Assembly (NCBI GenBank): GCA_037951105.1
Contig: JBAMJV010003320.1
Location: 18,053 to 82,052 of the forward strand
Direction of reading: 5' to 3'
DNA length: 64,000 bases
From: Echinarachnius parma
Lineage: Eukaryota; Echinodermata; Echinoidea; Clypeasteroida; Echinarachniidae
Shown: piece after piece, positions 5,889 through 60,715 of the stretch
Layout: each line of letters opens with the position of its first letter
Position numbering within the stretch: position 1 is the first letter of the stretch
Notes under the pieces: model-generated
Told to the model about the DNA's origin: nothing
Seen by the model: the letters and a program-made list of their open reading frames with translations, nothing else
The model's database searches: none
Made by a program: the position numbers and the translations under genes

Positions 5889-6574
5889 ATGGAGAGTTGA
5901 GTTTTGGTAAAGAGAGCACAGTTTTTGTCAAACTGAATGTTTGTAACCAAAACGTGCACCATTACATTACAAACTAATAGTTATAACTCCAACATGCTCG
6001 AAAGGAATAACAAATTACAAATGACTAAGTAAAAAGCCTGTTGTCATTAAATAAAGGCTGTCAAAACTCAAGTGGGTGCTCTTTAAACACTCTTCGGTAT
6101 CAATCATTTTAAATAAAATATTGTGCATGTGATGTTTTGTTGAAATAGTGATCAGATAGAGGGATAATCAACAACTATTTAAAAACCTCTTTTGTAAATT
6201 TTTGAATTTTTTTTTTTTTTTTTAATGTGATTTCCATTTCTCTAAAAAAGCATCGGTTTCAACCATTTTTCATAAACGATTATGCATGTGATGTTTTTGT
6301 TGAAATAATGATTAAATAGAGAGATCATCAACAACTATTTAAAAATCTCTTTTGAATACAAAAAAAAAAAATCATCGAATAAATCTGGGCCCCAGATTTA
6401 TTCCGATCGGATATATGTATTGATATTTCAGCTGTTTCAGAACCGATTTTGATCAAATAAAGTGTATTCTGCCATTAAAATTGTATGCTCTTTCAAATAT
6501 TACACTCAATTTTTTCATTAAGTCAACAAAAAATATTTCGTGCAGCGCCCTCTATACCAAAACTGAACTACCCC
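5889..6574 (+). mobile_element. Family A TTAA-flanked MITE, copy A1
   Basis: TTAA flanks both ends (5885-5888 and 6575-6578). The left end reads GGAGAGTTGAGTTTTGGT and the right end ACCAAAACTGAACTACCCC, which are terminal inverted repeats with a few mismatches. The interior matches five other copies, with blocks such as AGTTATAACTCCA, CATGCTCGAAAGG, TTGTGCATGTGATG, GATATTTCAG and GCGCCCTCTATACC. It is the longest copy, at 686 bp. TTAA duplications with short inverted ends are typical of piggyBac-type transposons, so a non-autonomous piggyBac-like element is inferred. No transposase is encoded. Confidence 0.85.
6377..6403. repeat. Palindromic core of MITE A1
   Basis: GAATAAATCTGGG, one base, then CCCAGATTTATTC form 13-bp perfect arms. 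A palindrome sits at the equivalent place in every other family A copy, but with a different sequence. Confidence 0.85.
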
Positions 6575-6578
6575 TTAA

Positions 6579-7569
6579 ATAAATTATTATTTTATTTGGC
6601 GAGGGAAATGAAAGCGTAAGTATCGCAAAAATATGTCTTTCAAAACAATGTTTGAGCAAAATCTGTTCAGAAACGGCTGAGATGTCCACACATAAAGTAA
6701 TTCTAATACAAGACATGTGCGTTGATTTTATTCGCGATTCGACCAATATTACATTTAATCTTGATAAAACCTACACATTCGTGAAAATAACTGGAAGTGG
6801 ATTGTAAGAACAATTTTCTATTGAGCGTTCATCTTTCGCGCGTGGTACGATGGTAGGGTTAACGCGGTATAGCAATTGCATAATCAAACTTATTTTCAGA
6901 GTTGTTAGGCTTTAAAGTTCTTTAAACTTTTAAAAGCAATTGTTATCCGCAAGTTTGATTTGTCATAACAAAAATAAAATTGAAAGAACAAGGCAATAAT
7001 AAGAGTGACATTTAAGATTGCGTCGGCCATCGGTTGCCTCTGAGACAGCACGTAACTCCCACTGATGCGGCCGGAGCCAGTTTTATTGTTCTCCAACTAA
7101 TTACTCGCACCCCGAACTGCCAGAAAACACCACGATGATGCACCGTCGCGGAGAGCTGGTGTTAATTTATAATTATGATTTGAAATAAAAGACGGATAAA
7201 TTGGAGACGGAAGCGGTGCCTAGGCTGTGATGAACTCATTCACACCCCAGCTTCTAAGTTTGTCAACTTGGCCATGTTGGCGTTGGACTAATCGCATCCG
7301 TTCCGGCAACGTGATGTTGATTACGCACATTGGCTTGGTTTCCTTCGGTGTAATTTCATCTTTAAAACAATACATAAAGACATTAACTGGTTGAGGGGCA
7401 AGGACAAGCGTCACGCATGCTGACTGACATTTACGCATTAACCCTTCCGATGCCGCATACTTATGTTTAACAAAGTAACACGTCAAACCCGTGTGTAATG
7501 ATGGTGATAATGATAATAATATTATACAGTGCATTTAGTATTCAATTAATTCAAAATATTTTAAAGGAA
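6579..7569. other. No recognisable feature
   Basis: The 7000-7500 part is somewhat less A+T-rich. A 104-codon minus-strand frame (7220-7534) begins MHCIILLSLSPSLHTGLTCY. I recognise no family, and no upstream element or splice pattern supports it. Confidence 0.45.
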
Positions 7570-7745
7570 TAATTGTTCCCGTCATATCCCAATTTACCCC
7601 ACCTGGGCTGAGAGCAGCAATGCATGCATTGTTAATATATTGCTGAAGGATGTACATTAAATGCTGGGTCACAATCGGTTTCGATCCCGGAGCCTCCGCT
7701 CCTCCGATCGCACGACAACGCCTCCACCATGTCCGCCTATACTAT
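7570..7745 (-). mobile_element. tRNA-derived SINE, family S2
   Basis: On the minus strand, GGACATGGTGGAGGCG is followed by CCGGGATCGAAACC, an A/B-box-like pair. The tail then contains TTGCTGCTCTCAGCCCAGGT and GGTAAATTGGGATA. The same tail motif (TTGCTGCTCTGTACGGTGTG then AAATGGGTACC) occurs after a B box at 63737-63990. Position relative to the pol III boxes supports a SINE. Confidence 0.7.
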
Positions 7746-8142
7746 AATGGAAGCGAAACAATTAGTGGTCACTTTAGACAGGTGCATGGCCAATTTAGAC
7801 AGTTTGTTTGGGATTCATGCTGATTGGTCATTACAGGCAGGTGGCTGCTCTGTAGGGGGTTGACCACTGATTTAGACGTACATATTAAATGATGGATACA
7901 AATTATCTTTGTTGTGATGATTGTGAAAGGACTGGCCTGGACCAGCACTTTATCAGGTTCTGCTATTGCTGGCTCTTGTTTTGTTTTTGTTTTTTACCAA
8001 CTAAAATATTCTATTAATTGTGATTACTCAGTGATTTATGTTATTTTTGTAAACGATGTTGTGTTTGCTAAATACATTTCATTTTTATTTCATATCGTGT
8101 CTGGATATGCGTGCACACAGGCTTCCAAGGGGACACACAGGG
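7746..8142. other. No recognisable feature
   Basis: Overlapping plus-strand frames of 67-77 codons (7914-8259) have a hydrophobic start but no recognisable domain. They run into a dispersed repeat. Confidence 0.5.
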
Positions 8143-8208
8143 TGTGAGAAATCGCAGGATTTTTGCCAAGAAATGTCACTTCTAATAAAGGAACTCGCTA
8201 AGGAACCG
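8143..8208 (-). repeat. Family H dispersed repeat, copy 3
   Basis: The inverse strand reads GGTTCCTTAGCGAGTTCC, then ATTAGAAGTGACATTTCTTG and ATCCTGCGATTTCTCAC, matching 2322-2395. It shows that H is an interspersed family and not just a local duplication. Confidence 0.7.
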
Positions 8209-8357
8209 TCAGTATTTAATTCCCCGCCTGTCATCCACTCGTTTTTTTCTCCTTATTAGAATAACGATTCAGTCGTAAAGTAGATGTACTATCGTATGAC
8301 AAACCTTTTAACATGGCCTTTATTCCCATTTCATGATGTAAACAATACTAATTTTAG

Positions 8358-8453
8358 CTTGATATCACAAATTCAGTTCTTGATACCACAACATGAATTT
8401 CTTGAAAGCACACATTAATTTCTTGATATCACAAATTCAAATGTTGATATCAA
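8358..8453. repeat. Short tandem repeat, 21-22-bp unit
   Basis: CTTGATATCACAAATTCA-like units start at 8358, 8379, 8401, 8422 and 8443. Each contains GATATC or a variant, itself a palindrome. About four and a half units are present. Confidence 0.8.
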
Positions 8454-9602
8454 GAAGTGCCATTTGTTAAGATGGACAGTTCTCCACCAGACAATGTATG
8501 CATTGTTATATCACTGGTTGAAGATTTAGTATGTAATATATTGCTTGTCACATCAATCAAATCTAGTGATTTTGTACATCATTAAACCTCAAGGAACTCC
8601 CCGTGCGGCCCCCGATGCAATGGTACGGTTGAGCTTATTATGATAATCCCAAAGTCTCATGCGAAGCCTGTTTAATACACCAAATGTGCTTTATTCATGA
8701 TGTAATTGTGCTTATATGAACTGTGATATATTATGTATAGCATTTTAATAACAACAGCGCACCAACATATGTCTACATAATGCAGGTTATAAGGCCGGAG
8801 ACCTGTCTTTTTCGAATCATAGAGGTGTAATGGATGAAATGTGGGGTTTTATTGGCTCTCCCTGACCAACCGGAAGCGGACGTTGATGGTACAAAGCGAG
8901 GTGACCTTCAGTCGTACAGTTAGCAATATCGCCTGCCTATAGCCTGTAGCGATCTTCTTGCGTTGCTTATGATTGAGTCCCGCGCAAGGATCTTGACGCA
9001 TCGGCATGCAATGCTTTACAAACACCGATCTCCAGCAGTTCCAAGCATGGTTCCAAGTGTATAGAGCTCGTTGGCTCCAAGACGGGATGACATAAATTTC
9101 ATGCGCGACAGACCGTAACATTTTACGAATGTAATGTGATCCGCTAGTAAAATTATCCTTTTCTGGTTCTCATAAATTGTCCCATTCATTTTGAAGCTGT
9201 CGAGAAATGAATTTCCCCGGGTACTGAACGATGCATGCGAATTGAGTCGCTTTTGTTGGAATTTTTATTTTTTTATTTTTTAATATTCCTAATATTTGTT
9301 TCTGAATGTTGATATTATTCTCGATCATGCTTTGTTAATTACTATATTGGAATTAGTTGTAGGAATCGTTGACCAACTCTCATGTGTTAAGTATATAGTT
9401 GATGTCGAATTACTTGTAATCATTAATGACGATTTACTTGATTATCTGGTATTTTGCATAACATATCAGCAATTATTGGCAAATATTAGGAAGCATCTTA
9501 CATCGCTGTGATATACTGACACATCTGTTTTCTGTCCGCTATGATTTCAAATTCCTGCAAAATATAAGTAATGCGCAGAGACAAAAGACAGAACGTTATA
9601 GA
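8454..9602. other. No recognisable gene; GC-richer patch at 8850-9120
   Basis: The patch holds a 90-codon minus-strand frame (8849-9121) of near-average base composition, unlike its A+T-rich surroundings. I recognise no motif in it or in the opposite strand, which has stops. It may be a decayed exon or an unidentified repeat. Confidence 0.4.
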
Positions 9603-9694
9603 CAGAAATAACCGTCTCTTCATGGAATTTATTATATATCGGATTGTTAAAAATCCGAAATCCCATGAACATGATGAAGAGACGGTTATTTCTG
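9603..9694. repeat. Hairpin with perfect 21-bp arms
   Basis: CAGAAATAACCGTCTCTTCA and one more base (9603-9623) is repeated exactly in inverse at 9674-9694. The 50-bp spacer contains further pairing (TCGGATT with AATCCGA; CATGGAATTT with AAATCCCATG). GAACGTTA lies outside both arms, as GAACGTTATAG on the left and GAACGTTACAG on the right. The size and shape resemble a small-RNA precursor or a recent fold-back insertion. Confidence 0.75.
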
Positions 9695-9699
9695 TGTAA

Positions 9700-10060
9700 G
9701 AACGTTACAGCATTACCGGGTTCAAAATTACAAAGGATCGATATATCAGCGATTCTTGCTATCATACGATGCTTTTAAAAATGATATTTCGAAACTAAGG
9801 TGCCCATTATTTATGTCCGTCTGATGAGAAATTGTATGTATTAGTGTTTCAAGAACGACATTGGCTCAACAATGACTTTTACCCTTTCTGGGAAACCAAA
9901 ATGTCAAACTGTTATGACTCACTTTAATTTGTTGCAACTTTCGTTCTTCATAAAAAAAGGGGAAATAAAAAAGAACCCTCAATGAAGTAACGGCTAAATA
10001 TGTTATGATTTCATGATCATATGATTTGAAACGATGTGACAGAGTGACGATTGATATGCG
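9700..10060. other. No recognisable feature
   Basis: The minus-strand frame 9866-10108 starts in the neighbouring family E repeat (MEQKHSFLEALDDSA) and runs into non-homologous sequence here. It contains no known domain. Confidence 0.4.
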
Positions 10061-10345
10061 GACTGCGGAGTCATCCAATGCTTCTAAGAATGAGTGTTTT
10101 TGTTCCATATTTGTTAGTTTTCAGCAAGTAATTGATTTCGCAAAATCCTCTTTCTGAATACGTATAATTGTGTTTACAGGCTTGCATTATTTCTCCAGGT
10201 TATCCGAGTAAATGTCCGTGAAATTTCTATATTTAAAGGTACCTTTTCTTGTGGGTCAGGATTAGAATATTTCAGCCGTTTCTTATGTTCTTAGCTGATT
10301 TTCTCAAATATACTGTATTTACATTTGCATTTGTTGTTGTTTTAA
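10061..10345 (+). repeat. Family E dispersed repeat, copy 1
   Basis: This 285-bp block aligns imperfectly, in inverse orientation, to 25390-25676. Shared blocks include GACTCCGCA, ATATGGAACAAAAACAC, AATTGTGTTTACAGGCT, ATTTCAGCCGTTTCTTA and GATTTTCTC. No terminal repeats are seen. On the minus strand of this copy an ATG opens MEQKHSFLEALDDSA. The partner keeps the same frame with one codon fewer. Confidence 0.75.
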
Positions 10346-10365
10346 TTTTAAGTTTCCCCGCATTT

Positions 10366-10889
<524 letters not shown>

Positions 10890-11109
10890 TACACAATTCT
10901 TATCTAGAAGGAAGTCTCCCTCTCAATTATGCTCACACACAGCTAAACTATCTCCTTATTAATGAACCTTTAACCGTGTAACCTCTTTATAAAACGGGAA
11001 ATGTGACAACAGCATGACATCAACGCAACACACATGAATCAATAGAGACAAAACAGTAATTTGATACTCATTGTTGGACAGCGACAGAAATGAGACCGCC
11101 ACATATGCG

Positions 11110-11465
11110 TAGAAGGCTTGGGGGGGGGGGGGGGGGGGGCTGGAAGGGTACAGCCCCCTGGATTTTGTTAAAACAGCCATATTCGGGCAAAATGCACCCC
11201 AAATTCGGGCAAACCATGTCATATTCGGGCAAATCTATGTCGTTAATTCAGGCAAACTTATGTCACATTCGGGCAAAGTCATTTCATTTTATGGCAATAT
11301 AACGTCTTTGTCATTTAGGGGCAAAACCGTCATATATTCGGGCAAAATCTTTTCATTTTAGGACTAAACTATCAAAAGCATCTAAACAATTGGTTTTTGT
11401 TGCTTGTCAGATGAAAATGCGGGAAGGATAATTATTCGGGCAAAAGACCTCGGACCCCTGAGAAA
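11110..11465 (-). repeat. Family F repeat, copy 2
   Basis: A run of about 20 G at 11119 is followed by GGCTGGAAGGGTACAGCCCC and then at least seven units of the type ATTCGGGCAAAATCATGTCA. It ends in CTTGTCAGATGAAAATGCGG and GGGCAAAAGACCTCGG. The same end in inverse opens the copy at 23405 (CTGAGGTCTTTTGCCCGAAT). The shared order of end motif, unit array and G/C tract defines the family. Confidence 0.8.
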
Positions 11466-11810
11466 AATATTCTCTTTCCTTTCCAACAAGTTCAGTGACG
11501 AACTCTCAGTAAAGCCCCAAAAGGCCCGGAGGGGTAGAGGCAATTGCCCTACATAATTATTACGGAACTGACCGTGGTCAAAATGTATGTTGACCATCGA
11601 GGCCATGACTTCTGCGATGCGGCGATCTGGTCCAGATAAGATAGTCCCTTCTGATCTAGATGTATGGAAAAGCTAATCCTATCTAACTTCGACCAACGGC
11701 AAAAACTTGCAACCCTCTTTCGAAGTTTCGATGATTACGAAGGGATTATAGCCAAGATCCAAGATAGCCAATCATGATAATGCCGCGATCTATTCGCTTC
11801 CTTATAATCC
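11466..11810. other. No recognisable feature
   Basis: Unique-looking sequence without a usable open frame or repeat match within the window. Confidence 0.5.
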
Positions 11811-11814
11811 TTAA

Positions 11815-12182
11815 AGGGATACAGTAACTATGTTACCGCCATACAAAATTGACTCAGGGTTGATAACATTTATCTGAATGTAGTCTACTTATTATGACCA
11901 CTGAGTGGTGTGTCCAAGTTTCTTGATGAATAAATGTCATTATGACAAACTAATGAGCGAAAATGTCATGTAATGTTTGATGACTCATTGCCATATTGTT
12001 TGTACACACAACTGAAATAATCCTCACAATTAAACAGAAAAAAATGTATCGATAACGATGTGAACATTTGGCAAACCAAAACTGGTTTCATATTTCTACT
12101 AGTACAATGAAAACAGCACGGCGTGAAAGAACCACTATATCTGCAAATTGGTCGATGAAGACAAATTAGATACTAGATCCCT
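11815..12182 (+). mobile_element. Family B TTAA-flanked MITE, copy B1
   Basis: TTAA precedes AGGGATACAGTAACTATGT. The right end is TACTAGATCCCT followed by TTAG, a one-base change from TTAA. The 368-bp body shares with other copies the central phrase around ATGAGCGAAAATG and TCATTGCC and a flank rich in CACAACTGAAAT-like sequence. AGGGATCTAGTAACTTTGT ends with TTAA duplications suggest a second piggyBac-like non-autonomous family. It has no coding capacity. Confidence 0.8.
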
Positions 12183-12454
12183 TTAGCGTTAGCTACACAA
12201 AGCGTGCGGCTTACGTTGGATTAAACATGGAGATTTAATTTTGAACTTTGACAAACGCCCCCTATTCATGACAACAGAGTCTCTTTAATGTGCATGATTA
12301 TACGGTATATGACATCTGAAGCCACATCGCAGACATCTTTGACTTAGAAAAAACATATTCTTGGCAATGATAAGCGTTTAGATGTAATCACTTTGGTCGT
12401 TCTGCGTCGATGTCTCATACATTTTTCATGATTAAAGTCAGCGAGGTATGAACG

Positions 12455-15925: not shown

Positions 15926-15964
15926 CTGTACCAGTCCACTAGTGAACGTACAAATCGAAAAGTC

Positions 15965-21095: not shown

Positions 21096-21637
21096 CGCCA
21101 CCCAGAGTTTTAGGAAAGAGTACAGTTTTGGACAAACTGAATTTTAGTAAACAAAACCTTCACCATTTACAAACTAAAAGTTATAACTCCATAATGCTCG
21201 AAAGGAGTACAAAATTACAAATGACTAAGTAAAAACCCTATTATCATTCTAAAAGTGCCGTTACAACTCAAGAGGGCGCTCTCTAAAAATTAATTGGTTT
21301 CAACCATTTAAAATAAAATATTGTGCATGTGATGTTTTGTTGAAATAGTGATTAGATATAGAGAGATGATCAACAACTATTTAAAAACCTCTTTTGTAAA
21401 TTTTTGAAAAGAGGAAGCATTACAAAAAATTATTAACGGCTGGTTCAAAATTATCGAATAATTGTGGGACCCCACAATTATTACAAATGGTTATGTTTAT
21501 GGATATTTCAGACATTTCAAATAAAGTTTATTCGGTCATTAAAATAGTCTTTCAAATTTGACACTCAGTTTTTTTATTATCTCACAAAAAAAAAAAAATT
21601 CGTATAGCGCCCTCTATACCAAAACTCCTCTTTCCCT
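21096..21637 (+). mobile_element. Family A MITE, copy A2
   Basis: The right end is GCGCCCTCTATACC then AAAACTCCTCTTTCCCT and TTAA (21638-21641). The left end is decayed to CAGAGTTTTAGGAAAGAGTA. The internal order is as in A1. The palindromic core is AATAATTGTGGG, two bases, CCCACAATTATT (about 21457-21482): the same place as in A1 but with a different, still self-complementary sequence. Confidence 0.8.
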
Positions 21638-21641
21638 TTAA

Positions 21642-23404: not shown

Positions 23405-23790
23405 GCAATTTTTAGAGGGGTGTGGGGGGGGGGGGGGGGGGCTGAGGTCTTTTGCCCGAATACCATCTCCCCATTTTCACCTGACAAGCAAAAACAAAAA
23501 AGGAGACAAAAGGGTTATCACAATTTAACCGCCCGAAAATTATATAATTTGTATGAAATTTCCCAAATATGCCCTGATTTTGCCCGAATATGACATGCTT
23601 TTGCCCAAATATGATATGAGTTTGCCTGAATATGACATGCTTTTGCCTGAATATGACATGCTTTTGCCTGAATATGACGTGCTTTTCCCCGAATGTTGTG
23701 TGCTTTTTGCCCGAATATGGCCGTTTTCAAAACTACGGGGGAGGGGCTGCATCACCAGCCCCCCCCCCCCCCCCCTCTCATACGCCTATG
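23405..23790 (+). repeat. Family F repeat, copy 3
   Basis: A run of about 17 G, then CTGAGGTCTTTTGCCCGAAT, CCATTTTCACCTGACAAGC, and an array of seven or eight 21-bp units TTGCCYGAATATGACATGCT. It closes with GGAGGGGCTGCATCACCAGC, a run of about 17 C and CTCATACGCCTATGA. The right end is the founding unit of the minisatellite that follows. Confidence 0.85.
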
Positions 23791-23792
23791 AT

Positions 23793-24834
23793 CCTCCCTA
23801 AACCTCTTGCCCTTCCCTATCAACATGATAGGGGGAGGGGGCTGCAGCCCCAGCACCCACCTCCTATGCCTATGAGCCTCCCTAAACCTCTTGCCCTTCC
23901 CTATCAACATGCTAGGGGGAGGGGGCTGCAGCTCCAGCACCCACCTCCTACGCATATGAGCCTCCCTAAACCTCTTGCCCTTCCCTATCAACATGCTAGG
24001 GGGAGGCGGCTGCAGCTCCAGCACCCACCTCCTACGCATATGAGCCTCCCTAAACCTCTTGCCCTTCCCTATCAACATGCTAGGGGGAGGGGGCTGCAGC
24101 TCCAGCACCCACCTCCTACGCATATGAGCCTCCCTAAACCTCTTGCCCTTCCCTATCAACACGATAGGGGGAGGGGGCTGCAGCTCCAGCACCCACCTCC
24201 TACGCATATGAGGCTCCCTAAACCTCTTGCCCTTCCGTATCAATATGATAGGGGGAGGGGGCTGCAGCTCCAGCACCCACCTCCTACGCATATGAGCCTC
24301 CCTAAACCTCTTGCCCTTCCCTATCAACATGCTAGGGGGAGGGGGCTGCAGCTCCAGCACCCACCTCCTACGCATATGAGCCTCCCTAAACCTCTTGCCC
24401 TTCCCTATCAACATGCTAGGGGGAGGGGGCTGCAGCTCCAGCACCCACCTCCTACGCATATGAGCCTCCCTAAACCTCTTGCCCTTCCCTATCAACATGA
24501 TAGGGGGAGGCGGCTGCAGCTCCAGCACCCACCTCCTACGCATATGAGCCTCCCTAAACCTCTTGCCCTTCCCTATCAACATGCTAGGGGGAGGCGGCTG
24601 CAGCTCCAGCACCCACCTCCTACGCATATGAGCCTCCCTAAACCTCTTGCCCTTCCCTATCAACATGCTAGGGGGAGGGGGCTGCAGCTCCAGCACCCAC
24701 CTCCTACGCATATGAGCCTCCCTAAACCTCTTGCCCTTCCCTATCAACATGCTAGGGGGAGGGGGCTGCAGCTCCAGCACCCACCTCCTACGCCTATGAG
24801 CCTCCCTAAACCTCTTGCCCTTCCCTATCAACAT
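23793..24834. repeat. 84-bp minisatellite, 13 copies
   Basis: CCTCCCTAAACCTCTTGCCC recurs 13 times, from 23793 to 24801, exactly 84 bp apart on average. Units are nearly identical; single-base variants (GAGGC for GAGGG, ATGATA for ATGCTA, one ACACGATA) mark subtypes. Because 84 is divisible by three and the unit lacks stops, frames of 466 codons (plus) and 362 codons (minus) span it. They are repeat artefacts with a 28-residue period. Each unit contains GGGGCTGCAG and CAGCACCCACCTCCTACGCA, copies of the closing end of the adjoining family F element. Confidence 0.97.
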
Positions 24835-28988: not shown

Positions 28989-28992
28989 TTAA

Positions 28993-29380
28993 AGGGATAG
29001 TTGAGTTTTGGTATAGAGGGCGCTACACAAAATAAAATTTGTTGTGAGATGATGAAAAACCGAGTGTCAAATTTGAAAGAGCATACAACTTTAATGTCCA
29101 GAATAATTTTATTTGATCAAAAACGGTTCAGAGACGGCTGAGATAACCATAAATATAATTGTAACTATTGTGGGGCCCCACAATAATTAATTAATTTTGA
29201 ACCAGCCGGCTCTTTTTGAATGATAACCGGCTTTTTACTTAGTCATTTGTAATTTTGTTACACCTTTCGAGCATGGTGGAGTTATAACTATTAGTTTGTA
29301 ATGTAATGGTGCAGGTTTTGGTTACTAAAATTTAGTTTGACCAAAACTGTACTCTCTTATACCAAAACCCAACTATCCCT
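28993..29380 (-). mobile_element. Family A MITE, copy A3 (shortest)
   Basis: TTAA on both sides (28989-28992, 29381-29384). The ends AGGGATAGTTGAGTTTTGGT and ACCAAAACCCAACTATCCCT are nearly perfect 20-bp inverted repeats. At 388 bp it lacks the middle block with TTGTGCATGTGATG found in A1, A2 and A6, so it is an internal deletion. The core palindrome is TATTGTGGGG / CCCCACAATA, near 29164-29183. Confidence 0.92.
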
Positions 29381-29384
29381 TTAA

Positions 29385-30394
29385 AATAGTAGTAATTTGT
29401 TAATATAATATCATTTTTTTCTTGTAAGTTATTCTCAAACATCAGCCGAATGGAGTTCAATGTACGCTGCATGCTGTGTTATCATACACGGTGTACGTAA
29501 TCGTATATCTTTGTTCATACCGCCCCCGCTCATGCAATCATGTCCATATTTGTATGTGTAATTAACTCGTTAACTTCAAGATGATGTACATACCACATAG
29601 GCAATACGTGACGACCCATGTTCTCGGAAGCAATGGATTAATCGGAATGATAAAGTCTGTTAAATTACATGTACAGTACATGTGTATTAATCTCGCACAC
29701 TTTAAAAAAACAAAAACTTGTATTTAAAGGTGCAATTACATTTTTGCAATACCTCTAAAATTAACAGCCCCAAATATTCGATTCTACTGCCGACAAAATA
29801 GAATAATGTTATGCATTGTGTATGTATGGAAAGAAACAATTAATCATCCGATAATGAACCTAAAATCTGATGGACTTAAACATGATCCGAGCGCCCGACA
29901 AAGATACCAAAAGCCGACTTGGAGATGCACTAGTTAGATGACGGGCGAGGGCGATTTCTCTCAGTATGGCATAAAAAAGTGCAACATCTACGTTTTTACC
30001 AGATCATGATGGTGTTTATGCAATGTGCCCTATATATAATTTAGATGATTTGGATGGTTTCTTTTAAAATTTAGCGGATTTTTATAAAACTGTTGTATGG
30101 CTTTAAGTGCTGCAGGTACCCTTCAATGTGCGGAAGATATTGTTACGTCTGCTCATATTTCACGCAGCCAGAAATAAGACCAGAACATTAAAACATCACC
30201 TAAAGCTTTTCGGGTCCTACAATTACAAGGTAGTGAATGCGACACCCACGATAATGACGCGTTGTTATGCATAATGGTGAGGTATAAGGGGGCACTTGCC
30301 CGCCCCCACCCCTCTCTAAACGTGTGAACCTCTCACTGCGACCACCTGTATGAATTTACTAGAAGAGTGAATTCAATGTTGGTCCAGGCTGCCT
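29385..30394. other. No recognisable feature
   Basis: About 1 kb of A+T-rich sequence with short frames only. GC patches at 29885-29960 and 30290-30315 did not match other parts of the window. Confidence 0.5.
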
Positions 30395-43024: not shown

Positions 43025-43380
43025 ACTAAAAGTACAGAGCCTATAGCCTCTATCGAACTCCCAAACTCCCAAATTCCTCGTGTCATAAGGACGGGTGAAG
43101 GACTTATCTCTCCCTAGTTGAGGGATTAATCGGGCTTGTCTAATCCACACAGATGACGCCTTGTGACACTTTAACCCGAACTGGATACAGTAGTTGGGTT
43201 TGATTGCCAATATAGATACCAACGATGAACCCTCAGAGTATCAAATTAAATCGCAAGATCCACTTGAATTAGTTATTTAGGCAAGTTTAACATGTATATT
43301 TATTTAAAAAAAACAATACTTGAATCTTGGAAGAAGTTAGATATCCATACAAGTCATTCCACTCTTATCTATTCTGCACA
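43025..43380. other. No recognisable feature
   Basis: Spacer between a family B element and a tandem repeat. A 79-codon minus-strand frame (42983-43222) starts inside the MITE and is not credible. Confidence 0.5.
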
Positions 43381-43686
43381 TTTATGAACTTATCAACAGT
43401 TCTGATTCTATGAGTATTGTGACTATAGAGTCATTTATGAACTTATCAACAGTTCTGATTCTATGAGTATTGTGACTATAGAGTCATTTATGAACTTATC
43501 AACAGTTCTGATTCTATGCGTATTGTGACTATAGAGTAATTTATGAACTTATCAACAGTTCTGATTCTATGAGTATTGTGACTATAGAGTCATTTATGAA
43601 CCTATCAACAGTTCTGATTCTATGAGTATTGTGACTTTAGAGTCATTTATGAACTTATCAACAGTTCTGATTCTATGAGTATTGTT
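43381..43686. repeat. Tandem repeat, 53-bp unit, six copies
   Basis: TTTATGAACTTATCAACAGT then TCTGATTCTATGAGTATTGT and GACTATAGAGTCA repeats at 43381, 43434, 43487, 43540, 43593 and 43646, exactly 53 bp apart. Units differ at only one or two bases (GCG for GAG, TAA for TCA, CCT for CTT, TTT for TAT), so this is the youngest array beside the 84-bp minisatellite. Confidence 0.96.
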
Positions 43687-48990: not shown

Positions 48991-49213
48991 TTATAATTTC
49001 GTTGGTATTTATACACGTTTGTTCTCACGGTATGTAAGTTATTGTTTGCCCTTTCGGAATTATTTCTCCTATTAATTTTTCGTTATAATTCATTTTCGTT
49101 ATAATTTCCCTCAAATAAACTACCAATCCCTTTCCCCATTTCATATTAAATAACGCATTGTGATTCGGAGTTATAAGGCCTTTAATGTTAAATCAGTCGA
49201 ACCAAAACGTTAA

Positions 49214-49712
49214 AGGGGTAGTTTAGTTTTGGTAAGGCTGAGCTTTAGTAACCAAACCTGGACAGTAACATTCTAAAATAATAGTTATAACTCCACCATG
49301 CTCGAAAGGTATACAAAATTACAAACGACTAAGTAAAAAGCCCATTATCATTCAAAAAAGAGCCATTAAAACACAAGAGGGCGCTCTCTAAAAAGGCATT
49401 GGTTTTAACCATTTTTCATACAAAATTATGCATGTGATGTTTTATTGAAATCATTATTATTTTTTGAAAAAGTGTAAGCATTTTTTTTTTTTTTTTTAAT
49501 TATATAATGCATTTAATTATTTGGGCTCCAAATAATTATAGGTGCAGATATATTTATTGATATTTCAGCCGTTTCTGGACCGATTTTGACCAAATAAAGT
49601 TTATTCTGCCATTAAAATTGCATGTTCTCTCAAATTAGACACTTAGTTTTTCATTACCTCACAAAAAAATTGTGATATGCAGCGCCCTCTCTACCAAAAC
49701 TAAACTACCCCT
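49214..49712 (+). mobile_element. Family A MITE, copy A4
   Basis: TTAA flanks both sides (49210-49213, 49713-49716). The ends AGGGGTAGTTTAGTTTTGGT and ACCAAAACTAAACTACCCCT are perfect 20-bp inverted repeats. Both ends carry the same changes relative to A3 (GGGG, TTTAG), so the ends themselves changed in step. The core palindrome is TAATTATTTGG, three bases, CCAAATAATTA near 49513-49537. It measures 499 bp. Confidence 0.93.
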
Positions 49713-49716
49713 TTAA

Positions 49717-51385: not shown

Positions 51386-51655
51386 GTGTGCGGTGAATTG
51401 CAATGTGTGCAGAGCGAACGAATCGCCCGGGAATCTATTGCTTACAAACGTGCGCGTGAATAGCATTGGCGCACTCGCAAATGCTTGGCCCGTATGGAAC
51501 CAGGAAATAGCAGTGGTTCCGTAAGTGGTGGAAATTAATTGCTTCGTTTATGAATTACACAACCCTTTGCAAAATGTTGGGTATCTATTTGATATCTCAA
51601 AACGGTACCAAAACATATAATAATGTGTTGTCCTTTGCCTGGTGGTCCCCTTTAA

Positions 51656-52814: not shown

Positions 52815-52929
52815 CGCTTATTCTAGGGAAGACCAATTTATTTAAACGCAGCCATTGTCTGTCATATCTTGACATTATATTGAAGAGTAGTTCTGATGAA
52901 TACATGATTGAGGAAAGACCTTTCTTTAA

Positions 52930-53496
52930 AGGGATAGTTGAGTTTTTATAGAGAGGGCGCTACACAAAATAATGTTTTTGTGAGATAATGAAAAAATGAG
53001 TGTCAAATTTGAAAGAGCATACAATTTTAATGGCAGAATAAACTTTATTTGATACAAATCGGTTCAGAAACGGCTGAAATATCCATAAACATAACCATTT
53101 GTAATAAATGTGGGGCCCCACAAGTATTCGATAATTTTGAACCAGCCGTTACAATTCGTTTTAAAATGCTTCCTCTTTTCAAAAATGTTCAAAAGAGGTT
53201 TGAGATAGTTGTTGATTATCTCTCTATCTAATCACTATTTCAACAAAACATCACATGCACAATATTTTATTTAAAATGGTTTAAACAAATGCGTTTTTGG
53301 AAAGCGCCCTCTTTAGTTTAAACAGCTCTTTTTGAATGATAACAGGCTTTTTACTTAGTCGTTTGCAATTTGTGTTATTCCCTTTGAGCATGGTGGAGTT
53401 ATAACTATTTGTTTGTAATGTAATGGTGCAGGTTTTGGTTACTAAAATTCAGTTTGACTAAAACTGTACTCTCTCTACCAGAACTCAACTATCCCT
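52930..53496 (-). mobile_element. Family A MITE, copy A5, inserted in a tandem array
   Basis: TTAA on both sides (52926-52929, 53497-53500). The ends are AGGGATAGTTGAGTTTTTAT and CAGAACTCAACTATCCCT. The core is ATGTGGGGCCCCACA near 53107-53123, with mismatched outer pairs, the least symmetrical core of the family. Array sequence continues on both sides (GACCTTTCTTTAA before, TTAATCATCTTCTATATGGG after), so the element is younger than the array. Confidence 0.92.
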
Positions 53497-53841
53497 TTAA
53501 TCATCTTCTATATGGGGTTCAACAAAAATGGGACATTATATACCCTCAAGTCTCACAACTACACTGACTTCCCTACATCGAAACTAAGTATATCTAGACC
53601 ATATGAGCGTGTAGACATGATACAAATACATATTTTATTAGAAGAGTATATAATAGTTCACTGATGTATGGAAAGGAAGAATGAATCAAACATCCTTCTT
53701 TGAAGTAAAACAAAACAAATGGTACAGGACTTCCCTTTCAGTCACAGTCCTCACATCTACACATCTAAAATCGAAGAGTATACCGGTATAGGTCAGAAGA
53801 TCATCTTTTATAGTTCAACAAAAAGGGACATTATTAGCTTC

Positions 53842-53996: not shown

Positions 53997-54484
53997 TTAG
54001 CTTCCCTCAAGTCGAAGGCCTCTATATACTCAACATACTTGTACCTCAAAACTAAACTTATTCAATCTAGACATAAAATGACTCAATTACTCAAGGATAA
54101 ACCAAAGACCCTTCTTTATTAATTTCTAGAATGCAAAATGGGCCATTAAGTCTCACATATACTGTACATCAAAACTATACTGTATTCTTGCTGGATTTTC
54201 TTGGAAGAGTGGTTCATATGAACCACAGACCTTTATTTTCTCATCTTTCAGAGTTCAACCTTAAATGGAGCATTATTTCCCCTCAAGTCTGAGGCCTAAG
54301 CATTTCTACATCGAAACTAGGAATTGTCTTTCTATGTTTCTTTTACCATGGCTCCATACCATAGTCTCTGCATAGGATGGCGATATTGCCCTAGCTTCCC
54401 GCGCGAAACCTCAGTGTGTATGCTTGGCGCGATATGATAATTTATGATAATTTTTTTTTTTCTTTTCTTTTTTAGTGTACATTT

Positions 54485-55110
54485 TATTTTTTAGACTCTG
54501 CAAATGAAATATTAACTCCCAGGATTTATTTAAATACCAGATTTATTCTCAACTGCCAATTTAAATGATTTATATTATATAACAGTACAATTACTCGACC
54601 GTTGATACTCACATTGTTTTAGTATATCGCCACTATTTAAAACTTTTAAGGACTATAATACAATATCAATTTGTTTTATTTTTTATTTTTTACAATTTTA
54701 ATTGTACTTGTTATTGTTGTAGTACCTCGCCATTATTTAAACTTTATTATTCAAATTTGTATTTTGATTGTACTTTTGGTTTAATAGACTCTGTAAACGA
54801 AATATTAACTTCCAGTATTTATTTAAATACTAGATTTATTCTCAATTGACAATTGAAATGATTTATAATATATAACAGTACAATTACTCGACGTTTGATT
54901 CATTGTTTTAGTATAGCGCCACTATTTTAAACTTTTAAGGACATTAATACAATATCCAAATTTTGTTTTAAATTGGACTTTTTATTTAATGGACTCGAGT
55001 TATACACATGATTTCATGAATTAATTATTCATTACTTTATTAATTTTGTTGCAATATTCGATAATCGTGATACGCTATTTAACATAAATATCAACTCCAA
55101 GTAATTACTC
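54485..55110. repeat. Direct repeats, 293 bp apart, with a third partial unit
   Basis: TAGACTCTGCAAATGAAATA at 54492 and TAGACTCTGTAAACGAAATA at 54785 start two homologous units of about 180 bp (shared ATAACAGTACAATTACTCGA, ACTTTTAAGGAC). A third unit begins TAATGGACTCGAGTTATAC near 54987, with ATATCAACTCCAAGTAATTA further on. Confidence 0.8.
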
Positions 55111-55284
55111 ATATGCCAGATTCATTATCCATGACTTTTTATCTTTTTATGCAAACGTTTCCGATTATTTCAGTGTAATAGATGTATTATTTGTCTTTAT
55201 AAAATGTACTTTATTGTTAATATGTAATTGTATTTTGTAATGGTATCTTATGCTTTATATGATTTATTTGATTGTAAAATTGTA

Positions 55285-55351
55285 TACAATTTAGCTTTCG
55301 GGCTACGATGTACAGTTATATGAATAAAACCATTTATCTATCTATCTATCT
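55285..55351 (+). mobile_element. Possible LINE 3' end
   Basis: GCTTTCGGGCTACGATGTAC is followed by ATGAATAAAACCATTTA and then TATC repeats. Non-LTR retrotransposons of the CR1 and related clades often end in a short microsatellite after an AATAAA-containing 3' untranslated region. No reverse transcriptase frame is present upstream, so this would be a 5'-truncated copy. Confidence 0.35.
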
Positions 55352-55737
55352 TATGTGATCACGGGAGTGGTACCGAGGAGAACCCCTTGGTCATGTTGGT
55401 GGTACTGAAAGTACAGTTTTGTATCTACGGATATATACCTTGATATTACTTCGCACGGGTAGAAACTTGTGGTTGTATTATTTTCATTTAAACAGCACCG
55501 TAAACAGAACATGAGAATCAATATTTCAGGCATGACTGATTATAAACAATCTGAAGTGGTACTTGTCAAAAAACATTCGTTCAAAATAATGGAGAAATTT
55601 GTTTTGAAACTTCTAGCTAGCAACCATCCACTGTCTTTGCTAACCCTATAGGTTATACTTAGACATTGTTAAATTAATTTGAATTTTGAATATATGAAGA
55701 AAAAGCATAGAATTGGTATTTGGCGAGACTTTAAACC
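55352..55737. other. No recognisable feature
   Basis: Opposed 60-codon frames (55351-55533 minus, 55469-55651 plus) are unremarkable. Confidence 0.5.
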
Positions 55738-55812
55738 GATACCTCTGTACGGGTAGACCAGTGCTCTACCAACCGAGCTACCCAGCACCTTAGCTGCTTG
55801 CTTGTCCCTGCT
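55738..55812 (-). pseudogene. tRNA pseudogene or SINE head
   Basis: The minus strand reads GCTGGGTAGCTCGGTTGGTA and GAGCACTGGTCTACCCG, with a perfect D-arm (GCTC/GAGC) and a good A box. The B-box position is altered to CGGTTTAAAGTCTCGCC, and the acceptor ends do not pair. The anticodon stem pairs in only about three positions. It is therefore not a functional tRNA. Confidence 0.7.
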
Positions 55813-56184
55813 GGGGTTAGGTAGTCTTTACCAACTAGCACATACCAGTCAGAAAAATAAAACACCTTTGCAGAGTGTGTGAAGGATCACTCAAATAAAA
55901 GGAATCTTGAACGTGCTATAAAAACAATATTATACTGACTGAGTAAGGAAGCTTTCTACAGCGAGCAACCACCACTTTCAGTGGTCTTTGCCAAATGGAT
56001 TAGTTTCCCCTCCATGTGTGTTTTACTTGGAACTGTTAAATTGCTATGACGATCCCGCGAAGAAGTTATAAACAGGGTGGATGGACGTTGCCCCCCCCCC
56101 CCCCCCCATATGTTAGACTTTATCAAGGCCCCGCACTAACAAGCAGCTTCGTTGAACAACGGGGAAAGATGTTGACCTGTTGTT
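55813..56184. other. No gene; poly-C tract at 56092-56107
   Basis: Mixed sequence, possibly including the body of a SINE belonging to the tRNA-like head. A run of about 17 C precedes ATATGTTAGAC. Confidence 0.5.
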
Positions 56185-56345
56185 GAAGGTGGTTAGGATT
56201 CGTAGATCAGATGCGCGGTGCCATCTTGCGAACGCCTTGCTGGGCACGGTGCGCAATACACAATGGCTCAGTGTAATGCAGGGCGCACAAATTATAGCCT
56301 AGTTCACGACGTAGGTCTCCACGCTTGCCCATCTTTACACCGTAT
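56185..56345 (+). repeat. Family D repeat, copy D5
   Basis: GAAGGTGGTTAGGATTCGTA, GCGCGGTGCCATCTTGCGAA, GCACGGTGCGCAATACACAA, TGGCTCAGTGTAATGCAG and AGCCTAGTTCACGACG, ending with CTCCACGCTTGCC. There is a small change where D2 and D4 carry fold-back elements (CACGACGTAGGT) but no insertion. It is the best-preserved uninterrupted copy. Confidence 0.88.
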
Positions 56346-56820
56346 ACCTGCAACTATTAAGCCAAATGCCAAGCCCACATGCGCTATCATGGCGTATTCG
56401 CACGATATTATTATATACTCCTGGTAATCGTGGCAATGGCAGCTCCCTCAATATTCAAAGCAGCCATCCCGGGCCTTGAACAAAGGCTACGCTGTATGAC
56501 TTATTGTGCCTTCACTAATCTGCCTGCCCTAATGAAGGCCAGTAATGAAGAAAGAAATACCAACATTATGTTTGCAATATAGCCGCCCTTCATTGCAATC
56601 CTCAACTGTCCTTAATTTTCCCCTTATATACTTTATTAGACTTGGTTACTAATGATGTACTTCGTATGTGAAGCTAGCGATTGTTTCTGGTCCAAGACAA
56701 TATCTCACTATCAAGACAAGTGCATATTTGCCATATGAATCTTTCAAGTTGTTCCTTCGTCATATACTTTGACACACACTGTGAATCCGTGTGTTCAGAA
56801 GATCCACGTGAAGTATTATA
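56346..56820. other. No recognised gene; 48-codon frame at 56436-56582
   Basis: ATGGCAGCTCCC opens a frame reading MAAPSIFKAAIPGLEQRLRC, which ends in NTNIMFAI. It is more protein-like than most frames here and G+C-richer, but it is short and unrecognised, with no splice evidence. Confidence 0.4.
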
Positions 56821-56824
56821 TTAA

Positions 56825-57212
56825 AGGGATCTAGTAACTTTGTTGAGATGTGCAAAAACTGATGAATGGTTGATGCAATGTATACTGTTGTTATCTCATA
56901 TGTCCTCAGGGTATTGTGTGAAAATTTCAGGTCAAATGGACAATGTATGGCCAAGTAATGAGCGAAAATGCAAAGTGATATTGGGTGATATTCACCAACT
57001 CACTGCATTCACTTTGTACAGGGATGAAAATCTCGCCCGGAGATTTTCTTATCTAAATACTTCAATCATACATATCTTTGTAATGAAAGGGAAATTTGAA
57101 AAACCGAAAGCTGTCCCATGATTTTATTGTTAATACGAATACAACAAGGTATAAAGGAACCGCTAGAATTACAATTTTATTTTGAGGATTTGGACAATGT
57201 TACTAAGTCCCT
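56825..57212 (+). mobile_element. Family B MITE, copy B6
   Basis: TTAA flanks 56821-56824 and 57213-57216. The ends are AGGGATCTAGTAACTTTGT and ACAATGTTACTAAGTCCCT. The interior runs GATGAATGGTTGATGCAATG, ATGGACAATGTATGGCCAAG, TAATGAGCGAAAATGCAAAG and TGATATTC, the clearest version of the family middle. It measures 388 bp. The 93-codon plus frame inside it is coincidental. Confidence 0.92.
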
Positions 57213-57216
57213 TTAA

Positions 57217-57755
57217 GTCGAAACTCAAAATAAAGCTTAATCTCTGTCATTTGTCACTACGCATTTTTCTTGCTTTACAATTTTTTGAACTTAAAAATAA
57301 ATAAAAGCAACATGATGATAACAGATATCATCTTTGTCAGTTTCTTGCTATCCAATTTTTACCTTGAAAACAAACACACATTGTGATAAATGATACTACT
57401 TCATGATACATGGATGGCGACGCCCTTTTAATATGCATATAGGCTATTAAATGTATTACCATGATTAACATGATTACGGCGCTTCCTTGGAATTTATGTC
57501 TGCACATTTATTATTTACGATAAAACTCCCACATTTTCTTGTCCGACTCGTTCAGCGGCCTCGATAGATTCATCCCCTGTTCACCTGTAATGGATGGCCG
57601 CGGATCAAGGTGTTTACTTTGTGTTCTGCTACTAATCCTGTCATTAACCATGGGTATCATGCATTGAGTGCATGGGCGCAACCCGGAATATAATGAACAT
57701 CCATGCACAGACTTTAACCGGAATATTACCATGATTTGTGTCTTCATCAGATTGA
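57217..57755. other. No recognisable feature
   Basis: A+T-rich; short frames only. ATGGGTATCATGCATTGAGT near 57650 contains a small palindrome. Confidence 0.5.
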
Positions 57756-57759
57756 AGAA

Positions 57760-58110
57760 AGAACTGATTTTGCTCGAAAATGTGCTGATTTGAAATTAGC
57801 CCGAATATGAGGTGATTTTTTGCCCCAAATTGGTTATGGTTTTGCCCAATATATGATGTGGTTTTGCCTAAAATTTAATATAAAATTAAGTGATTTTGCC
57901 CATACGGCGGTTTTGCCCGTATGTATGAGATGATTTTGCCCGATTATGAGATGGTTTGTCCCAAATAGTAGGCGATTTTTACTGAATGTGATAACAATAA
58001 TATAGCACAAATGTGCATTTAACTTATTTAAGTAACTTTCTGGGCACTTTTCAGTGACCGCAATGGAATTTTAATACGCCCCCACTTCGCCATGCGTGTA
58101 CTCTTGTTTG
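57760..58110 (+). repeat. Family F repeat, copy 4
   Basis: Units GATTTTGCCCGAATATGAGG and variants repeat about ten times between 57765 and 57985, with longer spacers than in other copies. ATACGCCCCCACTTCGCCAT at about 58074 may be the decayed C-tract end. No long homopolymer remains. Confidence 0.75.
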
Positions 58111-58959
58111 TTCTCCTCCACTATTAGTATAGGCCTATATGGGCTACAGACTGATTAAAGAGAAACCACACCCATTTCTTGAAGACAAAAGCAGATAATT
58201 CAGGCTAGGTAAACATTGATGAAAACAAATAAAATAAAACAAATTGAAGAATTACAATATCGCAAAATACAGGTTATGCTGGCACCTCATCTGCTTTCAA
58301 AAAGCACAGTTTAATTGCTAAAACATTTTGGAATATTTTAGAAATTAGTAATGTAATTTCATCTAAAACGTTTCCATATTGTAACGAGTATAAAATTGAG
58401 TGTATACTATACATTCTATAACCATACAAATCGACAACAACGTCAACCATATTACGCATCGAAAACGAATACATTATCCAACCTGTATTTTTGCTCGATT
58501 CCGCCTGAAATTCAAGATTATACTGATAACGCACGTACTCGCCCAATCTTGTGCATGGCTCGCTAAAGTACTTTTATAAAATGATTGCTTCTAGTTATCA
58601 GCAGTCAAAATCTTATCCCTAGGTGTTTTTCTACTGACACTTATACAGAGAAAATGCAACAAGTGATTCTGCTCTATGTAAAAGTGAACGCAAACAGTCA
58701 CAACCTCATCACTTCACTTATATTCTAGAATATTAAAGCTATAATGCAGTTAACAAAATTAACCCAAATTACCTGCCCAATTTCGCTGTCAATGCACGAG
58801 CATGTGAAGAAACATGTCGTTTATTATTATGATTATTGTACAAACACTTCAACCTTGAATTTACCGTGACCAATCACATTGTTTGCCGGGTCTTAACCCA
58901 TTCAGGACTGGTCCAGGAAATACTCGGGCTGCAGTAGTCTATGGAGAATACATGTTATA
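58111..58959. other. No recognisable feature
   Basis: A+T-rich. A 90-codon minus frame (58274-58546) is unrecognised and has ordinary A+T-rich composition. Confidence 0.5.
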
Positions 58960-59322
58960 GCAAAATCAATCAGTCCTCAATGTGCAAAAACTGGCAAATG
59001 GTTTATAAAATGTGTATTCCTCCGATCTGATGATTGCCGAGTGATGTGTGAAAATTCCATGATGGTAAATGAATGTCATATGACCAAGGAATGAGCGAAA
59101 ATGCAAAGTGATATTCGCTAACTCATTGCCCTGAATTTGTACACCATTATAATTCTCCACAAGATAATTCAAAATCTGAACACTTCAATCATACATATCT
59201 TTAAAACGGAAGAGAAATGTGAAAAACCGAAACCTGTTCCATGCTTCTATTATTAAGACGAATACGATGAGATATATGAGAACCAAGTACGTTTTGATGA
59301 GTATGACGATGTATAGTTCCCT
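58960..59322 (+). mobile_element. Family B MITE, copy B7, left end decayed
   Basis: The right end is GATGTATAGTTCCCT with TTAA at 59323-59326. The middle is well kept (ATGTGCAAAAACTGGCAAAT, TTCCTCCGATCTGATGATTG, AATGAGCGAAAATGCAAAG). The expected AGGGATCTAG start is lost, with CAATCAGTCCTCAATGTG in its place. Confidence 0.75.
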
Positions 59323-59326
59323 TTAA

Positions 59327-59786
59327 AACATATTACATCCGATAATTATCCGCAGCACTTCATTTGTTCATAGTCATAGAAAATACTGAACACGGAATTA
59401 ATGATTTACGTAAAGGACGACCTTTGCTCTATTTCTGTATTATTTCAGTTGTGCAAAGGAAACAAAATATACACAATGTTGTTAATACGTCACAGTTACA
59501 ATAATTGATACGCCGTTTCCGTATTTTTTTATAATTTGGAAGGTTTTTCCGGGATATTAATTATTAAGCAGTTTTTAAAAGCTTCCGTATATGGCGGAAA
59601 ATGGGAAAATTGCTCAGATTTATTTTTGAGAAATTGAGGGAAAGGGGGACATTCAAGCGCACTGCGTATTCTGAATAACTTTGATAACAATTGTTCCACT
59701 AAAATGATGAATGACCATTCAATATTGATGTTTTAATATCTAAATTATTACACTATTTAATGTTTTTGAAATGTGCATAAACGCAA
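59327..59786. other. No recognisable feature
   Basis: A+T-rich spacer. Confidence 0.5.
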
Positions 59787-59790
59787 CTAA

Positions 59791-60151
59791 AGGGATCTAG
59801 TAATATTGCCCGTATCCTCAACATTTGATTGGAGTTTTAGCGGTTTCCTCATATCTTGTTGTATTCGTATTAACAATAGAAGCATGGGACAGGTTTTTTT
59901 TTTTCGAATGTCCCTTTCGTTAAAAGATATTTACGATTGAAGTGTTCAGATGTTAAACTATCCACTGGATAGTCTTACACGTGTACAATGTGTTAGTTAA
60001 AATCACTTAGCATTTTGCTCATTACTCGGCCATAACGTCCATTTAACTTGAAATGTTCACACAATACCCCAGTGGACATATCAGATAACATTATACATTG
60101 TATCAACCATTTATCATTTTTTGCACATGTCAACAAAGTTACTAGATCCCT
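59791..60151 (+). mobile_element. Family B MITE, copy B8, abutting A6
   Basis: CTAA (a changed TTAA) precedes AGGGATCTAGTAATATTG. The right end ACAAAGTTACTAGATCCCT meets TTAA at 60152-60155, which is also the left flank of A6. Its interior is closest to B5 (AGAAGCATGGGACAGGTTTT, TATTTACGATTGAAGTGTTC). Confidence 0.9.
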
Positions 60152-60155
60152 TTAA

Positions 60156-60715
60156 AGGGAGAGTTGAGTTTTGGTGAAGAGAGTACAGTTTTGGTCAAAC
60201 TGAATTTTAGTAACCAAAACCTGCACCATTACATTACAAACTAATAGTTATAACTCCACCATGCTCGAAAGAAATACAAAATTACAAACGTTTAAGTCAA
60301 ACGCCTGTTATCATTTTTTTAAAGAGCCATTCAAACGCAAGAGGGCGCTCTCTAAAAACTAATTGGTTTCAACCATTTTAAATAAAATATTGTGCATGTG
60401 ATGGTTTGTTGAAATAGTGATTAGATAGAGAAATAATCAACTACTATTTAAAAACCTCTTTTGTAAATTTTTGAAAAGAGGAAGCATTACAAAATTTTTG
60501 TTAACGGCTGGTTCAAAATTATCGAATATTTGTGGGGCCCTACAATTTTTACAAATGGTTATGTTATGGATATTTCAGCCGTTTCTGAACCGATTTTGAA
60601 CAAATAAAGTTTATTCTGTCATTAAAAATGTATGCTCTTTCAATTTTCACACTCAGTTTTTCATTATCTCACAAAAAAATATTTTGTGTAGCGCCCCCTA
60701 TACCAAACTCAAACC
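60156..60715 (+). mobile_element. Family A MITE, copy A6
   Basis: It starts AGGGAGAGTTGAGTTTTGGT immediately after the TTAA that closes B8. The internal order is full length and close to A1 and A2. The right end is decayed to AGCGCCCCCTATACCAAACT without a TTAA. The core is ATTTGTGGGG then CCCTACAATT, one pair off perfect. Confidence 0.88.

Follow-up and report, generated by a model that had tools for sequence, protein, structure and literature searches.

Six copies of one MITE family

The window, the whole 64,000-nucleotide stretch of Echinarachnius parma DNA analyzed here, contains six copies (A1 to A6) of one MITE family, a very common short element of T2/Kolobok-like type that targets TTAA sites and ends in AGGGR (Table 1). 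Both ends could be located in 27 of 29 near-full-length hits (L001–L028 and the window), and in 21 of these 27 copies TTAA flanks both; A1 and A3 are absent from this count because their hits were split. The left end reads TTAAAGGG in 21 of the same 27 copies, in agreement with the AGGRR terminal motif inside TTAA that is given as a definition in PMC6004289. The terminal inverted repeats of the family are AGTTTTGGTA...TACCAAAACT. No ORF of at least 110 aa lies inside the six window copies, which have no transposase of their own and are non-autonomous, and no known RNA family was found in the window at the Rfam gathering score. MITEs of the piggyBac type also use TTAA targets and have CCY termini; this assignment does not fit, as most copies end in AGGGR...YCCCT.

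Table 1 Copies, core palindromes, and A1 right flank in the window; broken pairs are counted over the 12–13 compared
Feature	Position	Strand	Description
Copy A1	5885..6578	+	Type I MITE; extra internal duplication; TIRs, TTAA ends
A1 core	6378..6402	+	AATAAATCTGGG-C-CCCAGATTTATT; 12/12 pairs, 0 broken
A1 right flank	6403..6410	+	CCGATCGG; norm of type I subfamily
Copy A2	21104..21641	+	Type II; left end eroded
A2 core	21457..21482	+	AATAATTGTGGG-AC-CCCACAATTATT; 1 pair broken
Copy A3	28989..29385	-	Type II; internal deletion
A3 core	29166..29185	-	TATTGTGGGG/CCCCACAATA; pair 4 is T-A against A-T in the type II core; 1 pair broken
Copy A4	49210..49716	+	Type III; both ends TTAA
A4 core	49514..49538	+	TAATTATTTGG-GCT-CCAAATAATTA; 1 pair broken
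Copy A5	52926..53500	-	Type II; both ends TTAA
A5 core	53103..53128	-	AATACTTGTGGGG/CCCCACATTTATT; 2/13 pairs broken
Copy A6	60151..60728	+	Type II; right end eroded
A6 core	60525..60550	+	AATATTTGTGGGG/CCCTACAATTTTT; 3/13 pairs broken

The core palindromes in the window

Each window copy carries a GC-centred core palindrome, located at the same internal place and differing in sequence from copy to copy, as the first-pass annotation had described. It is eroded in A5 and A6, the two copies for which mismatches had been reported. Exactly two arm positions, 6 and 8, distinguish A1 from A2, and at each of these both arms are altered with pairing kept, which confirms the paired changes initially read from these two copies; their centres measure one and two bases, respectively. 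As single-strand DNA, the cores of A1 to A4 fold better than dinucleotide shuffles, with z values of −3.6, −2.2, −2.8, and −3.6 (the folding of A2 is equalled by 8 of 200 such shuffles), and those of A5 and A6 fold no better (z +0.5 and +1.1). A generic inverted-repeat scan picked up the A1, A2, A3, and A5 cores and missed those of A4 and A6.

Arms change together between subfamilies

In the 1.2-Gb genome, AATAAATCTGGG has 3814 + 3856 matches against 63 + 64 for the reversed word, and AATAATTGTGGG has 4571 + 4569 against 84 + 97; since the reversed words are far rarer, the abundance of the cores is not due to chance. The cores define subfamilies of hundreds to thousands of copies, named I (AATAAATCTGGG), II (AATAATTGTGGGG), and VI (AATAAATTTGGG), and the type III core (TAATTATTTGGG) was read in two copies. 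Across subfamilies the two arms vary in step: C-G, G-C, and T-A all occur at pair 8, and A-T, T-A, and G-C at pair 6 (the last in two copies), and between VI and the two III copies four pairs differ, each time in both arms. Types I, II, III, and VI all have the GGG/CCC centre and the adjoining T-A pair. Pairing is complete in the majority core of types I, II, and VI and in one of the two III copies.

We found 165 core rows, of which 153 were labelled and used in the tree; L002 and L008 were excluded as duplicates and 11 loci without a core row were dropped (L040, L048, L057, L067, L076, L084, L085, L087, L090, L092, and L157). Most fetched copies were picked for one exact arm, and 18 of the first 20 stretches were picked at both-strand matches, that is, with perfect arms. 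All by-eye counts (centre base, flank M, states of pairs 6 and 8, compensation at pairs 4 and 6, and IIb versus II) extend over the 100 places that come first in contig order, or over every place where fewer were listed. Covariation was compared with 500 column shuffles, which ignore the relatedness of the copies, in 64 distinct arm pairs (151 rows), and two of four measures lie above all shuffles: paired cells amount to 91.8% (shuffle mean 85.2%, maximum 87.2%) and cells changed on both sides to 51 (mean 24.2, maximum 32). The other two fall inside the shuffles: 3 pairs carry a change on both sides (mean 2.9, maximum 5), and 18 additional pair types occur (mean 15.7, maximum 21). Together with the states of pairs 6 and 8, these values bear out, between subfamilies, the earlier proposal that the arms change together.

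Parsimony on the flank tree, which is weakly supported, gives 16 changes for pair 8 against a shuffle mean of 67.7, and an AU test does not reject a single T-A/C-G switch (p 0.333). There may be few independent paired switches, some four in addition to those of III. Type V (L058, L081) combines type I arms with the even centre and the flanks of type II and could stand between II and I as an intermediate. Two copies, L109 and L110, have a rare left flank and the G-C pair in common and differ in their right flanks, and L115 carries a type I core within the VI clade. The first-pass annotation had named an origin from a few unrelated founder elements as the finding that would overturn it; this applies by half, as the cores do go back to a few founders, but those founders are related lineages of one family.

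Mismatched forms multiply and dead copies lose pairing

A mismatched form of type II, named IIb, has T facing T, with no wobble pair, and accounts for 43 copies against 52 of perfect II among the first 100 listed of 1705. Were the arms independent, AATAAATG left arms within type II flanks would be followed by a right A and a right T at about this ratio, 52:43. Divergence looks higher in IIb (median 13.2% in 7 copies) than in perfect II (8.1% in 6 copies), and IIb may accordingly have a greater age or a mixed origin. Other mismatched groups recur as well, AATATATCTGGG/CCCAGATTTATT in three copies plus variants and AATACTTGTGGGG/CCCCACAATTATT in two copies plus variants.

Once copies are dead, their arms and the adjacent sequence decay at about the same speed, and pairing is lost at roughly the background rate. 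Per-site decay of the free arm is 3.7% (n = 29) and 5.9% (n = 41), compared with 3.2/6.5% and 9.2/8.7% in two flank blocks; this count used those 52 of the 54 type I rows in which one arm is exact, taken from the AATAAATCTGGG match list in contig order up to C113, with pair C54 left out. Single-arm changes were compensated in 0 of 44 cases at pair 4 and in 2 of 23 at pair 6, the two probably representing one lineage.

The unpaired centre base and the A1 right flank

The flank MCGATCGG stands beside the type I core in 508 copies across the genome whose arms are exact and whose centre is C, and in 336 more with another centre; the first 100 listed of the latter comprise 87 G, 9 T, and 4 A. The right flank of A1, whose complementarity to the left flank had been taken as a template-switching event in that copy, is thus typical of subfamily I, and a private switch in A1 is rejected.

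At the type I centre, A and T are much rarer than C and G, and the founder events behind C and G are possibly few; the C and G sites of type I flanks show 38 transitions and 8 C/G swaps. The centre of subfamily VI is G in 19 of 20 copies and C in one. A C/G swap at the centre is what template switching predicts through inversion of the spacer, as described in PMC8604942. Centre states cluster somewhat on the weakly supported flank tree (24 changes; mean 32.8, minimum 28 in 50 shuffles), and a small number of founder events may account for the swap. Of 82 flank sites, 0 are linked to the centre base at p<0.001 and 2 at p<0.01, in a test of low power, since flank sites are scarcely linked to each other (1.0% of 3221 pairs at p<0.01). 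The M position of the flank is A in 23 of the first 100 listed copies with centre C and in 17 of 87 with centre G; in a separate listing, flank C goes with 34 centre C and 26 centre G, and flank A with 11 C and 2 G.

Origin of the paired changes

The arms of dead copies decay, single changes mostly stay single, and mismatched IIb is abundant, which places the origin of the covariation in active founder lineages. We tentatively regard arm-to-arm copying in these lineages as the best fit and as the explanation of the covariation, although with somewhat less than even confidence. The substrate would be a non-autonomous T2/Kolobok-like MITE family with an internal palindrome of 24–26 bp. In the few lineages still transposing, a mutation would strike one arm first; the mismatched form would be viable and able to multiply, as IIb does, and one arm would later be recopied from the other, yielding a perfect but different palindrome. 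The copying route would most likely be a polymerase template switch across the hairpin, presumably during replication or repair of the excision gap. Once a copy is no longer a source, its arms would decay independently, as is seen in dead copies. Each subfamily would inherit the palindrome of its founder, and the arms would therefore seem to covary without need for a hairpin in every copy. No arm-copying event with a clear ancestor and product was caught among the copies compared.

Of the two explanations offered by the first-pass annotation, arm copying is the better; a strict requirement for the hairpin is unsupported, because IIb nearly matches perfect II in number (43 and 52, as above) and dead copies unpair freely, and unpaired forms do spread. 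Alternatively, though with lower probability, a dyad or hairpin could be under weak selection in active lineages, be it as a site for a dimeric protein, as a hairpin in the DNA that aids transposition, or as an RNA hairpin. Mutated sources would then perform slightly worse and compensated founders would win over time, with dead copies left free, so that much the same founder-level covariation and founder cores are predicted. The constant GGG/CCC centre with its T-A pair in I, II, III, and VI and the perfect pairing of the majority cores and of one III copy agree with such selection, but the near parity of T/T-mismatched IIb, though this form is perhaps older, and the recurrence of the AATATATCTGGG/CCCAGATTTATT and AATACTTGTGGGG/CCCCACAATTATT groups speak against it, and it offers no reason for the restriction of the unpaired centre to C and G.

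We consider it quite improbable that one or two old double changes were simply amplified through a few founder events and passed between subfamilies by recombination or gene conversion. Cores do track subfamilies, as the 16 changes at pair 8 indicate, a single switch is not rejected, and the shared and unshared flanks of L109 and L110 and the type I core of L115 are as such exchange would leave them. Several paired changes are nevertheless required by pairs 6 and 8, with three states at pair 8, to which III adds four more pairs and A3 one at pair 4; nor is the type V combination expected from simple transfer of a type I core, unless V is the II–I intermediate. It is very improbable that template switching repairs the arms of all copies, whatever their age, each time they are replicated: the mixed C/G centres with little flank linkage, in the low-power test, would suit such repair, but single-arm changes persist (0/44 and 2/23 compensated) and arms decay much like flanks, and frequent repair in dead copies is rejected on these grounds.

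Within arm-to-arm copying, the palindrome might itself be a self-copying site, at which excision and gap repair let a polymerase copy arm onto arm, so that the 12-bp hairpin is kept by mutation bias rather than function, and only in moving lineages. We hold this to be doubtful; if it were true, perfect arms would serve as a molecular sign that an element was recently a source. Paired changes are commonly taken to prove that a structure is under selection. In this family, the many dead copies separate founder-level change from change after insertion, and a mismatched form that has multiplied indicates that covariation need not mean requirement. The family could serve as a test bed for short hairpins persisting without selection.

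Relation to known systems

The family resembles the T2-MITE of Xenopus, of the Kolobok superfamily, in its TTAA target, AGGRR motif, TIRs, lack of autonomy, many subfamilies, and high copy number, as these are described in PMC6004289; the host is presumably other, and the abstract, outline, and Background of that paper mention no internal covarying palindrome. Our literature search found no description of a covarying palindrome in a MITE, which does not prove that none exists. Template switching between short inverted repeats predicts homogenization of the arms, according to the accounts in PMC8604942 and PMC8794818. These concern yeast coding genes and RNA genes, whereas a mobile element is the substrate here, with the paired change visible in founders, not in dead copies. 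Bacterial REPINs, as presented in PMC3116915, are likewise short mobile palindromic sequences within one genome; here, in contrast, the palindrome makes up a short internal stretch of a TTAA transposon.

Family identity and core types

The six window copies A1–A6 of the family A transposon belong to one family, because an HMM built from them retrieves further copies from the 1.2-Gb host genome (14,790 contigs) and because they share termini (TTAA-AGGGR...YCCCT-TTAA), with TTAA flanking both sides in 21 of the 27 copies with both ends located. No ORF of at least 110 aa lies within any of the six. Such ends mark T2-type MITEs, a group presumed to be non-autonomous and to belong to the Kolobok superfamily (PMC6004289).

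Core types were read off by placing the copies in register. A flank tree, from whose input the palindrome was left out, splits types II and V (53 rows) from I, VI and III (100 rows) with high support, most finer branches being weakly supported. Pair 8 (arm base pairs are numbered by position in the palindrome) requires 16 changes on this tree versus a shuffle mean of 67.7, and pair 6 requires 27 versus 51.8; the cores thus largely follow subfamilies. The 17 fetched perfect type VI copies fall into two flank backgrounds, 15 versus 2. One copy (L115) has a type I core and a flank placed within the VI clade, which may reflect reversal, exchange or a misplaced row.

Core types of family A and further repeat features
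Feature	Location	Description
Type I core	A1	ATCATCG-AATAAATCTGGG-S-CCCAGATTTATT-MCGATCGG
Type II core	A2, A3, A5, A6	TTATCG-AATAATTGTGGGG-CCCCACAATTATT-ACAAATGG
Type III core	A4, L028	TAATTATTTGGG-C-CCCAAATAATTA
Type V core	L058, L081	arms as type I; even centre and flanks as type II
Type VI core		AATAAATTTGGG-G-CCCAAATTTATT
Arm duplication	L019, about 4330-4400	left arm of core duplicated, AATAAATCTGGGGCTCGAATAAATCTGGG preceding right arm
Internal duplication	window 6135-6354	in A1, 160-bp spacing; none seen in the aligned other window copies
Inverted repeat	window 4617-4718	42-nt, imperfect, 81% complementary, 18-nt spacer
Trinucleotide array	window 10369-10891	long; TAC, then TAA
Minisatellite	window 23777-24834	84-bp, 12.6 copies, 97% matches; reading frame open on both strands
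Tandem repeat	window 43379-43685	53-bp unit, 5.8 copies, 97% matches

Arm covariation between subfamilies

Two pairs each show three states: C-G, G-C and T-A at pair 8, and A-T, T-A and G-C at pair 6. In 64 distinct arm pairs drawn from 151 rows, the paired share is 91.8% (shuffle maximum 87.2%) and the both-side-changed cells number 51 (at most 32 when shuffled), both higher than in any of 500 column shuffles, which ignore the relatedness of copies. The other two measures lie within the shuffled range: 3 pairs show both-side change (shuffles average 2.9 and reach at most 5), and further pair types number 18 (average 15.7, at most 21). The claim of the first-pass annotation that the two arms change together thus holds between subfamilies on two measures and finds no support in the other two. 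The signal is located in pairs 6 and 8, plus pair 4 in one copy (A3); arms compared in slid registers are 36-50% paired. Types III and VI differ at pairs 1, 3, 4 and 5 with both arms changed each time, though type III was read in just two copies, and in one of these a G-C pair is broken. A single T-A/C-G switch was not rejected by the AU test (p 0.333). Counted cautiously, I, II and VI would have seen about four paired switches (pair 8 twice, pair 6 twice), beyond which may come that of A3 at pair 4 and those of III.

Decay in dead copies

In copies that are no longer a source of new ones, the arms are not kept matched. Where one arm remains exact, the free arm has decayed by 3.7% per site in one set (29 copies) and by 5.9% in another (41 copies), versus 3.2/6.5% and 9.2/8.7% in two 12-base flank blocks. 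A-to-G at pair 4 is compensated in 0/44 copies, five other right-arm sites being changed in 5/220 cells, of which pair 8 accounts for 4; at pair 6 it is compensated in 2/23, against 1/46 cells at two other sites. Private arm changes therefore mostly remain single. The two compensated copies (L109, L110), in which pair 6 is G-C, have the rare left flank GTGTAGGC in common and are probably one lineage; their right flanks are unlike, a pattern that hints at exchange between copies.

Genome-wide counts and origin of the matched arms

The pair 6/8 pattern in type II flanks matches 1705 genome places; among the matches listed (first 100), 52 are perfect II and 43 are IIb, with T opposite T at pair 6; another 3 (C235, C312, C342) are perfect and combine A-T at pair 6 with G-C at pair 8, and one each has A/A at pair 6 and C/C at pair 8. 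Type I/VI flanks match 1045 places, with C-G 73, T-A 20, T/G 4 and C/A 3 among the first 100 listed. The T8 pattern without a flank condition gives 741 matches, each perfect double being counted twice, once per strand; the first 100 listed comprise 81 from perfect doubles, 16 singles and 3 doubles with an additional mismatch.

Matched arms characterise the main founders but not the dead copies, and IIb reached nearly the number of II among the matches listed. These similar numbers need not mean equal vigour, because the IIb copies read are more divergent (median pairwise mismatch over the right 150 bases 13.2% in seven copies versus 8.1% in six perfect II). Between hairpin selection and arm-to-arm copying, the alternatives originally proposed, we tentatively prefer copying of one arm onto the other within the active lineage, which could account for both the matched founders and the numerous mismatched form with few extra assumptions. 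Weak selection for a dyad, its main rival, seems somewhat less likely.

Unpaired centre base

The single unpaired centre base of type I is C in 508 copies and another base in 336, the first 100 of which listed have G 87 times, T 9 times and A 4 times; at C and G flank sites of type I, transitions number 38 and C/G swaps 8. Among the C-G copies in the first 100 of the 1045 matches, centre C to G is 34 to 26 with flank C and 11 to 2 with flank A. The 20 T-A copies in the same listing, those of type VI, all have flank A, with centre G in 19 and C in 1. This C/G pattern is what spacer inversion would produce, and it may be just a few founder events; on the flank tree the centre states show some clustering, needing 24 changes where 50 shuffles average 32.8 and never need fewer than 28.
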